Below are positions 58,394 through 64,000 of a stretch of 64,000 nucleotides of DNA, piece by piece. Source of the DNA: an uncultured Granulosicoccaceae bacterium (lineage in GTDB: Bacteria > Pseudomonadota > Gammaproteobacteria > Granulosicoccales > Granulosicoccaceae). Below the pieces are notes generated by a model. That model had not been told where the DNA came from and did no database searches. It was given only the letters and a program-made list of their open reading frames with translations. Each line of letters begins with the position of its first letter. The stretch's first letter is position 1. The position numbers were made by a program, and so were the translations under genes. The DNA is taken from contig CAKZUP010000032.1 of the NCBI GenBank assembly GCA_937922945.1, positions 57,849-121,848 of the forward strand, in the 5' to 3' direction.

Positions 58394-59659
58394 TCAGGTT
58401 TCTTCGTAAATCGAATAGGCAGCGTCAACTCCTGCACCTTGTTTGGTTTTGAAGCCACGACGGTTGAGCACCATTTCCAATGCGCTTAAGCAGCGCAGCA
58501 CATTGGACTTTCTGCACACGTAGCCCATTGTACCAATTCGCCAGATTTTTCCATCAAGTGGACCGAAGGATGTGCCTATTTCGATGCCGAAATCGTTAAG
58601 CATGTCAGATCTTACCAGCGCGCCGTTTCCGCACTCCTTGGGAATATAGATGCCTGTCACATTATCCATTCGGTGATTTGGGTCACCAAATAACTCTAGG
58701 TCCATGGCTTGCAAACCTGATCGCAAGGCACGACTGGTGAGCTGATGCCGATGCTGGCAATTTTCCAAGCCCTCTTCTAATAATATACGCGCGCACTCAC
58801 GCGACGCATACAACATACTCGCCGATTCCGTGTGATGATTTAATCTATCCGGCCCCCAGTAATCCATAAGCATGGCCAGATCAAAATAGTTCGATTGAAT
58901 AATAGGGCCATCGGCATCCACTATTCCCGGTGCGCGTATTCCCGCCTCAGTGTGTTTGCGATGCAGAATTCGTTCAGCCACCTCGTCTGTAAAACTAATA
59001 GGGGATGAACCCGGAGGACCTGACAAACATTTCTGCAACCCCGCACTGACAATATCGATATTCCATTCATCGATGGGTAACGCATTCCCTCCAAGACTGG
59101 CAGTCGCATCGACATACAAAATGCAATTATACTTTTTACAGATTTCGCCAAGTTCTTTTAACGGCTGTTTTACTGTTACGGATGTATCGCCCTGACTAAT
59201 TGCTACCACCTGAGGCTTATGCGTCTTTATTGCTGCCTCTAATTCATCCGCGGTGAAAATCTGCCCCCATTCGGTATCGATGCTGACTGTTTTCGCAGAA
59301 GAGCGTTTAGCTATTTCCTTAAGCAGATGGCCGAAACGTCCGAAGATAGGCGTCAGTACCGTGTCGCCGGGTCTGATAATTGAAGTAAGACACGCTTCTA
59401 TACCAGCCCGTGCAGTACCGTTAACCAGTAAAGTTTGCTGGTTACGGGTTTTAAAAACCTGCCTGTACAGCACTTGCACCTGATCCATATATTGCGTGAA
59501 TTGCGGGTCGAACTGTCCTTGTAATGGAGTAGACATTGCACGCAATACTCTTGGATAGACATCCACTGGCCCGGGTCCCATTAATAGTCGCGGCTCTGGG
59601 TCTAGTTCTTCAAACAACACAGGATAATCAGTCACGGTAGTCAACTCTTTGTTAATCAA
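58394..59659 (-). CDS. pucG: (S)-ureidoglycine-glyoxylate aminotransferase
   Basis: 'LMGPGPVDVYPRVLRAMSTPLQGQFDPQFT', 'NGTARAGIEACL', 'SNYFDLAMLMDYWGPDRLNHHTES', 'GTSFGPLDGKIWRIGTMGYVCRKSNVL', recalled as PucG-like; adjacent to allC and allFGH homologues. Confidence 0.85.
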   Translation of the reverse strand: MINKELTTVTDYPVLFEELDPEPRLLMGPGPVDVYPRVLRAMSTPLQGQFDPQFTQYMDQVQVLYRQVFKTRNQQTLLVNGTARAGIEACLTSIIRPGDTVLTPIFGRFGHLLKEIAKRSSAKTVSIDTEWGQIFTADELEAAIKTHKPQVVAISQGDTSVTVKQPLKELGEICKKYNCILYVDATASLGGNALPIDEWNIDIVSAGLQKCLSGPPGSSPISFTDEVAERILHRKHTEAGIRAPGIVDADGPIIQSNYFDLAMLMDYWGPDRLNHHTESASMLYASRECARILLEEGLENCQHRHQLTSRALRSGLQAMDLELFGDPNHRMDNVTGIYIPKECGNGALVRSDMLNDFGIEIGTSFGPLDGKIWRIGTMGYVCRKSNVLRCLSALEMVLNRRGFKTKQGAGVDAAYSIYEET

Positions 59660-59697
59660 AATCGTAGTTTGTCAATCTAACTCGATCTGCAGCAGTG

Positions 59698-61005
59698 TTA
59701 AGTTATAAGCCCACACATATTCTGAACGGTACGCATAAGTACGTTCGCCCCCAGTATCGCATCTGCTTCGGTGACAGATTCGTCCGGATGATGACTCACT
59801 CCGCCTTTACAACGCACGAACAACATGCCAATGGGTGTAATTGCAGCCATTGCAGCCGCATCGTGCCCTGCACCACTGGGCATTGAGATAGGCTTTACAT
59901 TCTCAGCAAGCAGCGCCTGCTTCATGGTATCCAACAGCACATCGCTGCAACTGACCGTACTGGCATCGTGCATGCGATCTACTGTTATGGCGATATTTCT
60001 TTGTTCACAGAGTGCCGTCATGTCCGACAACAACGCATCGACCTTAGCCAAGCGAAGCGTGTCGTCCTGGGCGCGAACATCGACACTGAACTGTGCGCTT
60101 CCCGGAATAACGTTGCCGGCTCCGGGCTCAGCCTGTATACGTCCGACAGTACCGACCAGACCAGCGTGACCAGTGCACTGTTGCTCCACCAGAGAGATGC
60201 AAAGTGCAGCCGCCGCTAACGCATCACGGCGCAAGCCCATGGGTACCGTACCTGCATGGCCGGCAAGGCCATCCAACGTAATGTTAAGACGCGTTGCACC
60301 TGCAATACCGGTAACCATTCCCACCGCTTGCGATTCCACTTCCAATACCGGGCCTTGCTCGATGTGCAGCTCAATATAGGCAAGCAGCTCCTCCGGCATA
60401 CGTTTGGCCTTGGGTATGCGCGCAGCGTCTTGTCCAAATGTTTTCAGAGCATCAACAAACGAGATGCCATCTGCATCTATTCTATCCAGAACCGATGGGT
60501 TAAATTCACCAGAAACCGCACGACTGCCTAGAAATGTTGACTGATACCGTACACCTTCCTCATCAGCAAAGCCTATAATTTCAACGGCGTAAGGTAGTCT
60601 TACGTTGTTTTCGTGTAGTGTTTCCACGCAAGCCAGCGCGCTGACGATACCCAACATGCCATCGAACCTGCCAGCATCTATAACCGTATCTAAATGTGAG
60701 CCAAGCATAATTGCCTTGGCTTTATTGTTGCCCTCGGAGTCTGTATTTCCAACCGAGCCATCGTTGTGTGCCTCATAGCGGCCAATAATATTTCCAATCG
60801 CATCTTCTCGGGTAGACATACCGGCATCTGCCATCCAATTTGCCACCAGATTATTGGCTCGTCGATGCTCAACACTTGCAAAGCGTCTGGTTAATCCGTT
60901 GGGTGATTCCGAAATTGCAGCCAGTTCTTCAATGCGCGGCATAATCCGTGCAGCGGCCGACGCACTTAACCTTAACTGAGACGGGCTTGTTGTCATATTC
61001 ACCAC
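59698..61005 (-). CDS. allC: Allantoate amidohydrolase (M20-family Zn-dependent carbamoyl amidohydrolase)
   Basis: 'IMLGSHLDTVIDAGRFDGMLGIVSAL', 'GFADEEGVRYQSTFLGSRAVSGEF', 'ELHIEQGPVLE', 'MPSGAGHDAAAMAAI'; start may be the second Met (60996). Confidence 0.88.
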   Translation of the reverse strand: MVNMTTSPSQLRLSASAAARIMPRIEELAAISESPNGLTRRFASVEHRRANNLVANWMADAGMSTREDAIGNIIGRYEAHNDGSVGNTDSEGNNKAKAIMLGSHLDTVIDAGRFDGMLGIVSALACVETLHENNVRLPYAVEIIGFADEEGVRYQSTFLGSRAVSGEFNPSVLDRIDADGISFVDALKTFGQDAARIPKAKRMPEELLAYIELHIEQGPVLEVESQAVGMVTGIAGATRLNITLDGLAGHAGTVPMGLRRDALAAAALCISLVEQQCTGHAGLVGTVGRIQAEPGAGNVIPGSAQFSVDVRAQDDTLRLAKVDALLSDMTALCEQRNIAITVDRMHDASTVSCSDVLLDTMKQALLAENVKPISMPSGAGHDAAAMAAITPIGMLFVRCKGGVSHHPDESVTEADAILGANVLMRTVQNMCGLIT

Positions 61006-61088
61006 TCAACACCAATACAGTTTATTAAAATTAGCATCACCATACCCACACAACACATAAAGCGAAATCTAAGACGCTTAACGCACAG

Positions 61089-62084
61089 TTAGACACAACA
61101 CGTTGTACGGTAAGGCACGTTATTCGGTGCGGTTGATTTATCTATGCACGTTATCGCCTCCAGACATAAACTAAATCCTGCAAACCAATCCCAGCCTGAC
61201 GTATTGCCAATACCGTTTAGCGCTTGCGCTACGCTACGCTGACTCGATTGTGGATAGCGCACTAACAATGCAATGAGTGTCTGCATACGCTCGCTGTGCT
61301 CATCGTTAGCAGCAAGCTCAAGTAACGCACACGACACCATCGTTGTTTTTCCGCAAGCATCGTCACGCATTGCAGACCATAGCCGACGAACACATGCGTC
61401 ATGCTGCAAAAGATTCAAGCATGTGAACACCCCCATGATGAAATCATCGCCAGACGGCGTTAATCCAGGACCAACACCTAGCAGCTTTATGAACTGTTCA
61501 GTATCGAACTGAAAATGGGCGTTCTGTTTCAAGGGCATCACAATGAAAGCGCTAATTTGCTGTAGCAGCGAACGTACTGCAGGAGCTGTGTAGTTCAGCA
61601 ACGAATGATCCATCGCTTTTTCGCTGAATAGTCGGGCCATTCCATCGTGCGGTAGTGGCAATTGATTTCGCAGGTTGCTTATAGCTTCAGCCCAATCGGG
61701 CATCAGGGTGACGCTGCGTATTACCCCATCATGTTGGTTTGCACTATGCAAGCTCAGCACGTGGCCGTTTTCGAACATTAATCCCGATGCATTGAAATGC
61801 ACTTTGGCATCAGGATAAACACATGCCGGCAGCGCGGTTAAGGTTTTCGGGAGCTGCGCTGTGAGTGGGCCTGCACCCAATTCATGCAAGGCAAGGCAAA
61901 CCAACCGATCGTTGAATTGCAGATACGCACTTCGGTTAAATACACACAGTACACGACCAACCGCTCGGGAGGCATACAGCGAGTAGACGACCAACCCGGC
62001 ATTGATAATTGAAATCGAGCCTACGCCCGCTACAGCATAAACTTCACTGCTTCGATTCTCTTTACGTAATGCTGTAACTGCCAT
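61089..62084 (-). CDS. allH: DUF2877 protein (AllH/YlbF-like), candidate oxamate carbamoyltransferase subunit
   Basis: 331 aa; 'LLGVGPGLTPSGDDFIMGVFTCLNLL' signature of DUF2877; adjacent to fdrA and DUF1116 genes. Confidence 0.82.
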   Translation of the reverse strand: MAVTALRKENRSSEVYAVAGVGSISIINAGLVVYSLYASRAVGRVLCVFNRSAYLQFNDRLVCLALHELGAGPLTAQLPKTLTALPACVYPDAKVHFNASGLMFENGHVLSLHSANQHDGVIRSVTLMPDWAEAISNLRNQLPLPHDGMARLFSEKAMDHSLLNYTAPAVRSLLQQISAFIVMPLKQNAHFQFDTEQFIKLLGVGPGLTPSGDDFIMGVFTCLNLLQHDACVRRLWSAMRDDACGKTTMVSCALLELAANDEHSERMQTLIALLVRYPQSSQRSVAQALNGIGNTSGWDWFAGFSLCLEAITCIDKSTAPNNVPYRTTCCV

Positions 62085-62096
62085 CCTTATTGATAC

Positions 62097-63581
62097 CTAG
62101 TCGGCAGCGATAAGCTGCAGTGCAAGCAGTGTGGCTTCTTCATTGCTGTCGGCGACCAGAACACCGGCGTTTACAAGCTTGCTCACCTGACTGGTACGTT
62201 GTTGCGGATCATCATCGGTTCCTGTGACAGATGCAATAACTTGAGTATTGGCATCCACGCCGCCCGCTTGTTCAAGGCACTGCACCAGTTGCCCAGCAGG
62301 GTCACTATGTGCGCCAAACCCGATGACAACATCCAGTAGTAATACACCCACGTTAGCGTCCGCCAACGCTCTTTGTATCGCCTCGTCGCGAATGCTCGGT
62401 TCGATCATTGGGTGCGGTTTACCCTGAGTAAATTCATCAGCACCCAGATCAATAATTTGATGTGTATTCGCCTCGTACTGCATACCCGGCATAACGATAT
62501 TGGAAGATACCGGCATTTTGTGACGATTAAACAGAATAAGCGCTTCGGTACAAAGCGTGCCTCCGCAAAACAATCCGTGTATTGTTTGTCCCGCTCGTCT
62601 TGGTAGGGATTCGGGCAAGACGGGCGCCGCTAACAATCCATCCTGTCGCATTGCTATTCTTGCTGCTTCACTGAGCGTTTCTGCCCAACCGCAATTATCG
62701 GGTAGCGTGGGTTTCTCACCACCGAGAAAACACAGCGTGTAGGTTTTAGCCGATTGTGCCACCGCTTCTAACACCTTGGCGCTGACGGCTGCACTCGGCG
62801 GCTTTGACACCAGCACGACGTGACGCGTATCAACATCGTTTTCAAGCGCACTCATTGCCATTAGTGTGGAAACACCGCCAACACGTTCGTGAAGATCCCG
62901 GCCCCCAACGCCAATGCCCTGAGAAATGCCTTGACCCTGCCGCGCCATTAGGCAGGCTATTTCCTGTATTCCGGTACCAGATGCACCGACAATGGCAATA
63001 TCACCGCGAGGCACTTTGTTGGCAAACGCCAACGGCACACCATTTATAATAGCGGTGCCGCAATCGGGGCCCATCACGAGCAATCCCAGTTCACGCGCTT
63101 CAAGCTTTAATTGCGCCTCCTGTTCAATCGGTACGTTGTCACTGAAAATCATCACATGAAGACCACGTTGCAATGCCTTGCGGGCTTCACTCACAGCAAA
63201 TGCGCCGGGTACGGAAACTAACGCAAGGTTTAATGACGGTCGAACTTGTTTGGCACTGCGTATGCTCTTGGGTTTCCAGACATCGCCTTGCTCTGAACCC
63301 GTGGGTGAACTCAATAAGCGATCAGCTTCTGTCATCGCAGCGGTCACGCTCGTCGCATCGTCGCCGCGAACAGCAATGATAAGGTCTGCAGGAGTCGCCT
63401 GAATGTTGTTCGCTTCGAGCAATCCGGCGTTTTGCATAATCTCGATATTGGATGGTGTGGCCATCATCATAGCCGCATCACTGACACCAGCAAGGTTGGC
63501 AAGCGCCTTTGAACTGCGCATTAACGCAACAGAGTCGAGATAGAGTCTTTGTTTGATCTGATACTCACAAATCCCGCTCAT
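62097..63581 (-). CDS. allF: FdrA-family (AllF) acyl-CoA-synthetase-like protein, candidate oxamate carbamoyltransferase subunit
   Basis: 'LGLLVMGPDCGTAIINGVPLAFANKVPRGDIAIVGASGTGIQEIACLMARQGQGISQGIGVGGRDL'; 'GLFCGGTLCTEALIL'. Confidence 0.88.
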   Translation of the reverse strand: MSGICEYQIKQRLYLDSVALMRSSKALANLAGVSDAAMMMATPSNIEIMQNAGLLEANNIQATPADLIIAVRGDDATSVTAAMTEADRLLSSPTGSEQGDVWKPKSIRSAKQVRPSLNLALVSVPGAFAVSEARKALQRGLHVMIFSDNVPIEQEAQLKLEARELGLLVMGPDCGTAIINGVPLAFANKVPRGDIAIVGASGTGIQEIACLMARQGQGISQGIGVGGRDLHERVGGVSTLMAMSALENDVDTRHVVLVSKPPSAAVSAKVLEAVAQSAKTYTLCFLGGEKPTLPDNCGWAETLSEAARIAMRQDGLLAAPVLPESLPRRAGQTIHGLFCGGTLCTEALILFNRHKMPVSSNIVMPGMQYEANTHQIIDLGADEFTQGKPHPMIEPSIRDEAIQRALADANVGVLLLDVVIGFGAHSDPAGQLVQCLEQAGGVDANTQVIASVTGTDDDPQQRTSQVSKLVNAGVLVADSNEEATLLALQLIAAD

Positions 63582-64000
63582 ACCACACCCTCATGTTCAG
63601 CAAAGGCCTTCAATGCATTAACGAAACACGCCATGGGGGCTCGGACCACACCCGCACCCACCTGCCCGATACCAGGCTCTTTATGGGCAATACCGGTATT
63701 AATCGTTGGTACAAGACCAAGCTCGACTACACGGCGGATATCTATTCCGGTTGGGACACCCAGAAAATCCATGGCCGGAATACTCCATTCCGGATTCTTG
63801 GCACAGCATATTTCACCCATATCTTGCGTGTAGATAGCCGCATCAGAGGCAGCGCCAGCACCAACAAAGCCTGCAACAGCTGGGGACGCCCCCATTGCAA
63901 ATCCACCCAGTCCGATGGTTTCGACGATGGTCGAATCGCCCATATCCGGATTGGCATCGGCAGCACTGAAGCCTGCAAAGTACAAACCTTCTGGCATCTC
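63578..64000 (-). CDS. allG: DUF1116 protein (AllG/YlbE-like), C-terminal part; 5' end beyond the window
   Basis: 'TINTGIAHKEPGIGQVGAGVVRAPMACFVNALKAFAEHEG' C-terminus of DUF1116; ATGA overlap with fdrA; reading frame continues to the window edge. Confidence 0.85.
   Translation of the reverse strand, partial: EMPEGLYFAGFSAADANPDMGDSTIVETIGLGGFAMGASPAVAGFVGAGAASDAAIYTQDMGEICCAKNPEWSIPAMDFLGVPTGIDIRRVVELGLVPTINTGIAHKEPGIGQVGAGVVRAPMACFVNALKAFAEHEGVV

Follow-up and report, generated by a model that had tools for sequence, protein, structure and literature searches.

The right end of the analysed DNA (the window, a stretch of 64,000 nucleotides from an uncultured Granulosicoccaceae bacterium) carries a single operon in which two branches of purine-nitrogen salvage, each known separately, are combined. 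Based on the analyses described below, it is likely that the operon is a hybrid of the HPX pathway of Klebsiella and the ALL pathway of E. coli, and that it would convert allantoate to oxamate and carbamoyl phosphate.

Organization of the locus in the window and in related genomes

Starting from the end of the contig, the following genes are found on the minus strand:

63578–64000, minus strand: allG (DUF1116/YlbE), C-terminal 139 residues; 86% identity to residues 278–416 of the full AllG of relative G020
62097–63581, minus strand: allF (FdrA), 494 aa; lacks the tail domain (~45 residues) found at the C-terminus of E. coli FdrA; NCBIfam FdrA, PDB 3dmy
61089–62084, minus strand: allH (DUF2877/YlbF), 331 aa; PF11392 AllH, 4e-22
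59698–61005, minus strand: allantoate amidohydrolase of the HPX type (HpxK-like AllC), 435 aa; NCBIfam, 515 bits
58394–59659, minus strand: predicted ureidoglycine-glyoxylate aminotransferase (HpxJ/PucG type), class V, 421 aa; 3nnk, clade and residues
56409–58391, minus strand: hybrid histidine kinase (PAS, HisKA, HATPase and receiver); Pfam domains

The successive intergenic gaps from allG to the kinase gene are −4 (an overlap of allG and allF), 12, 83, 38 and 2 bp, which suggests that the genes form one transcript. The first five of these genes had been named in an earlier note made from the sequence, and the family, structure and clade evidence presented here bears out all five identities at the coordinates listed. 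The hybrid histidine kinase is the probable regulator of the operon; its orthologues, 71–73% identical, occupy the equivalent position in relatives G020, G010 and G022. Neither in the window nor in these three relatives does a separate response regulator gene adjoin the kinase gene.

The assembly comprises 5.04 Mb in 225 contigs and is 94% complete. At the protein level, its close named relatives are uncultured Granulosicoccaceae/Granulosicoccus, and the host is accordingly a Granulosicoccus-like gammaproteobacterium. The window extends up to the end of contig C32 (121848 bases), which stops inside allG, and therefore the remaining part of this gene is not readable. A search of the assembly for the missing part, performed with PF06545 and with the full AllG of a relative, returned only the fragment in the window.

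The gene set of the window recurs in related genomes. In G020 (L002), G010 (L003) and G022 (L028), the order is allG-allF-allK-allH-amidohydrolase-aminotransferase-kinase, with a divergent gene of the gamma-glutamyltransferase (gGT) family next to allG. G007 shows a permuted arrangement (aminotransferase-tail gene-allG-allF), and thus the linkage of these genes survives rearrangement. Of the seven genomes of the genus with AllF, five have an orthologue of the aminotransferase, and in the other two the contig breaks off within allH; no orthologue was found in the 17 genomes of the genus without AllF.

The aminotransferase and the amidohydrolase

Comparison with the PDB revealed that the aminotransferase best matches Klebsiella HpxJ (3nnk; 512 bits), followed by B. 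subtilis PucG (3isl; 397 bits), while the best alanine-glyoxylate enzyme scores 276 bits. In a maximum-likelihood tree of 23 proteins, it is placed inside the HpxJ and PucG clade with support of 100/100. The protein retains the PLP lysine Lys198, as well as Gln37 and Asn264 (PucG numbering), two residues that we take to lie on the substrate side and to bind ureidoglycine; His and Tyr replace them in alanine-glyoxylate enzymes and in the paralogues tested. In total, 27 positions, Gln37 and Asn264 among them, are uniform in the HpxJ/PucG set and differ in three characterised alanine-glyoxylate enzymes.

An alternative is that the protein is an ordinary alanine/serine-glyoxylate aminotransferase turning glyoxylate into glycine, with ureidoglycine leaving only via AllE and AllA. 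The two kinds of enzyme share a superfamily, annotation pipelines name such proteins as members of the alanine--glyoxylate aminotransferase family, and AllE and AllA, encoded by adjoining genes on contig C65, provide ureidoglycine with another exit. The placement with the characterised HpxJ and PucG, the 27 separating positions, the difference between 512 and 276 bits, and the absence of the gene from the members of the genus without AllFGH all speak against this alternative, which we regard as extremely improbable. The alanine/serine-glyoxylate identity was rejected on the clade and the diagnostic residues, and the protein is, on the same grounds, a predicted ureidoglycine-glyoxylate aminotransferase of the HpxJ/PucG type. 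This agrees with the earlier note, which had named it a PucG-type ureidoglycine-glyoxylate aminotransferase. That note had also set the operon apart from the AllE/AllD route, which holds for the operon, where neither gene is present, but not for the genome, which encodes AllE and AllA. Since both of these are present, the window genome has both ureidoglycine exits. The AllE/AllA branch and the aminotransferase branch probably run in parallel, and the former would supply glyoxylate, the acceptor needed by the aminotransferase.

The amidohydrolase scores 515 bits against the NCBIfam allantoate amidohydrolase model NF006775 (cut-off, 479), and its best match in the PDB is an N-carbamoyl-amino-acid hydrolase. 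It shares 40–42% identity with the Pseudoalteromonas and Zymomonas copies encoded beside HpxJ, and 34% with E. coli AllC. With the amidohydrolase nearer to the HPX-type copies than to E. coli AllC, the front half of the operon is of the HPX type and the back half of the ALL type. As a candidate for a second allantoate amidohydrolase, only a HyuC-like paralogue (30%) encoded beside a dihydropyrimidinase-like gene on contig C139 was found, and it was rejected.

The predicted transcarbamylase subunits and the tail domain

AllF, AllG and AllH are encoded together in the window, AllF and AllH completely and AllG by its C-terminus, and the full set is present in G020, G010 and G022. AllF reaches 510 bits with the NCBIfam FdrA model (cut-off, 433), in an alignment that extends only to position 494 of 555, and its best PDB match is FdrA (3dmy; 1.2e-95). 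AllH is divergent, with about 33% identity to the AllH at the equivalent operon position in relatives. The fragment of allG is 84–86% identical to the C-terminus of the full AllG in relatives, and the full-length AllG of G020 matches PF06545 (AllG) with an E-value of 2.6e-90. A Pfam search with the fragment alone gave no match because most of it falls beyond the C-terminal end of the 215-residue AllG core. In the tree of AllG, represented by the proteins of the relatives as the window copy is incomplete, the genus is placed, with moderate support (89/90) and with long branches that call for caution, as the sister of the E. coli/Enterococcus AllG clade of allantoin clusters and not with the YahG-type paralogues.

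In E. coli, AllFGH has been shown to be an oxamic transcarbamylase (PMC11326118), which substantiates the link to oxamate carbamoyltransferase drawn in the earlier note. It might be argued that AllFGH of the genus moves a carbamoyl group from another ureido compound and that the ureide enzymes are merely neighbours, especially as AllG is placed next to the E. coli clade with moderate support, AllH is divergent, and other genomes and plasmids encode AllFGH paralogues together with isochorismatase-like hydrolases and without allantoin genes. Paralogues next to such hydrolases, and those of the yah cluster, may indeed act on other ureido substrates. In the genus, however, AllFGH is linked throughout to the HPX-type amidohydrolase, the aminotransferase and the oxamate amidohydrolase, including in the permuted G007, and the very metabolites that would join AllFGH to the neighbouring ureide enzymes are oxalurate and oxamate. 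Another substrate is thus considered unlikely.

E. coli FdrA consists of 555 residues, and AllF of the window, with 494, has no tail. In six relatives, a small gene (67–83 codons where measured) is located directly upstream of allG; five of these tail-domain genes are as follows:

L003:8507-8755: tail-domain small gene
L002:8528-8734: tail-domain small gene
L028:5197-5400: tail-domain small gene
L030:1486-1737, minus strand: tail-domain small gene
L032:4317-4556, minus strand: tail-domain small gene

A profile built from five small-gene proteins of the relatives matches the C-terminus of FdrA in E. coli, Photobacterium and Enterococcus, as well as the N-terminal part of long AllG paralogues, YahG among them (E-values, 7e-8 to 4e-17), and gave no unrelated match among 207 comparison frames from E. 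coli and genus loci. The domain, about 45 residues long, has no match among Pfam families. Its occurrence as a fusion to AllF, as a fusion to AllG or as a protein of its own is as expected for a piece of one complex. As for the composition of that complex, we infer that the free tail-domain protein is likely a fourth subunit of the transcarbamylase; such a split-off small subunit looks undescribed. In the window genome, the expected place of the domain is beyond the contig end. For structural work, the split domain would indicate which small piece a reconstitution from other lineages must include.

The AllG most similar to those of the genus outside it (67%; L114:8746-9990) is found in G322, a genome of the same phylum. 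At that locus, AllH, a free tail-domain frame and AllF are encoded behind an ABC transporter-like set, and the neighbourhood contains neither the aminotransferase nor the amidohydrolase.

Predicted route and comparison with known systems

Both enzymes that the earlier note had proposed to seek elsewhere in the genome were found. The allantoinase, of the PuuE type, is encoded on contig C17 (512 bits; cut-off, 425); in G010, the PuuE gene is located near genes that we read as putative hiuH, xdhABC and adenine deaminase genes. Carbamate kinase is encoded by allK between allF and allH in the relatives and is missing from the operon of the window, where the two genes are 12 bp apart. The window genome carries an intact copy on contig C190 (C190:9301-10251), which is 81% identical to the G020 operon copy. 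As an additional observation, the carbamate kinase frame (L055:9286-10314, the same contig) overlaps the end of the preceding helicase-like gene.

The gene divergent from allG is an orthologue of hpxW in five relatives, with 71–79% conservation. The best PDB match of its product is 5hft, which we take to be the Klebsiella oxamate amidohydrolase HpxW, and the motifs PHHLASQ and VVYPHMNGLGGD are common to both and missing from the ordinary gGT-type paralogues. The 5hft structure paper is cited in PMC5270733. No HpxW orthologue was found in the available contigs of the window genome, where its expected place lies beyond the contig end; in the window species, HpxW is probably encoded there. A gGT-type paralogue on contig C181 (35%) was considered as the HpxW of this genome and rejected, as the HpxW motifs are missing from it.

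These differences from the relatives could also mean that the module is decaying in the window species, with carbamate kinase moved out of the operon, HpxW gone and no flux through AllFGH. The short gap between allF and allH without allK, and the recovery of the 35% gGT paralogue and no HpxW orthologue, would fit such decay. On the other hand, all of the readable frames of the module are intact, allK is intact elsewhere in the genome with its 81% identity, and the contig stops inside allG, before the expected place of hpxW, in an assembly that is 94% complete. Decay of the module therefore appears very unlikely.

With substrates and the direction of flux deduced from the computed gene identities, linkage, clade and diagnostic residues, the route would begin with PuuE, which would open the allantoin derived from purine breakdown. 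The operon amidohydrolase would convert allantoate to ureidoglycine, NH3 and CO2, and the HpxJ/PucG-type aminotransferase would transfer the amino group of ureidoglycine to glyoxylate, yielding glycine and oxalurate. AllF, AllG and AllH, together with the tail-domain protein that relatives encode separately, would then phosphorolyse oxalurate to oxamate and carbamoyl phosphate, from which carbamate kinase would produce ATP, NH3 and CO2. Finally, HpxW, in the five relatives and probably here too, would convert oxamate to oxalate and NH3; with this step, all four nitrogens would be recovered without urea. The order of reactions foreseen in the earlier note, from allantoate via ureidoglycine to glycine and an oxalurate-type product and on to oxamate and carbamoyl phosphate, agrees with the clade, the diagnostic residues, the carbamate kinase, the allantoinase and the oxamate amidohydrolase gene adjoining the operon of relatives, but requires amendment at its end: with hpxW next to the operon in five of the relatives, the genus probably degrades oxamate further. 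The route thus points to the consumption of oxamate, a dead end in E. coli, and the operon suggests a transcarbamylase able to take oxalurate from a transaminase.

E. coli allFGHK (fdrA-ylbE-ylbF-ybcF) encodes the oxamic transcarbamylase and carbamate kinase (PMC11326118, PMC9843812). The present system shares with it the three subunit families, the carbamate kinase and the predicted reaction of oxalurate to oxamate and carbamoyl phosphate. It differs in that oxalurate, formed in E. coli by AllE and AllD, would here come from the transaminase; AllF is devoid of the C-terminal domain, for which relatives have a gene of its own upstream of allG; the gene order is G-F-(K)-H, with oxamate amidohydrolase linked in relatives; and the allantoinase is PuuE instead of AllB. 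With the Klebsiella-type HPX operon (hpxJ, hpxK, hpxW and hpxXYZ), it shares the HpxK-type amidohydrolase, the HpxJ aminotransferase and, in relatives, HpxW, whereas the oxalurate step, which in HPX loses the carbamoyl group by hydrolysis, would be performed by AllFGHK and give carbamoyl phosphate. No HpxY-like frame indicative of the HpxXYZ oxalurate amidohydrolase was found in the stretches read around the operons. Judging by gene content, the operon of the relatives is an HPX operon in which the hydrolytic oxalurate amidohydrolase is replaced by the AllFGHK transcarbamylase. The HPX-type plasmid clusters of Pseudoalteromonas and Zymomonas have, in addition to the amidohydrolase and aminotransferase genes, an amidase-family or AtzE-type gene, of the family to which the oxalurate amidohydrolase HpxY belongs, in place of AllFGHK here; the Pseudoalteromonas cluster also contains a gGT-family gene. 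B. subtilis PucG resembles the window aminotransferase in clade and diagnostic residues, but the latter is closer to HpxJ.

Of the roughly 20 AllG loci from outside the genus that were read, only those of Photobacterium and Enterococcus include the aminotransferase. The clusters of Photobacterium DA100 and of an Enterococcus gilvus plasmid likewise combine AllFGHK, AllC and an aminotransferase of the HpxJ/PucG clade; unlike the operon of the genus, they include AllE and AllD, and their AllF retains the tail domain. The ureidoglycine carbamoyltransferase of Barba 2013 was considered as a possible FdrA and rejected, the enzyme there being of the ATCase type. In a literature search that covered mainly open papers, AllFGH was found described for E. 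coli and nitrifiers, and the present combination was not found. The enzyme families and single steps are already known; the combination looks new. We would give about an even chance to the full proposal, that is, a urea-free, ATP-yielding route freeing all four allantoate nitrogens via non-orthologous replacement by AllFGHK, with a fourth subunit consisting of the ~45-residue domain (AllF-fused in E. coli, AllG-fused in YahG-type proteins and free in Granulosicoccus).

Genes of the DUF1116 (AllG) type are also common on plasmids, with 193 records, 96 of which are from Escherichia. One of them, the E. coli conjugative plasmid NZ_OY856300.1 (L157), encodes carbamate kinase, an isochorismatase-like (cysteine) hydrolase and an AllFGH set.
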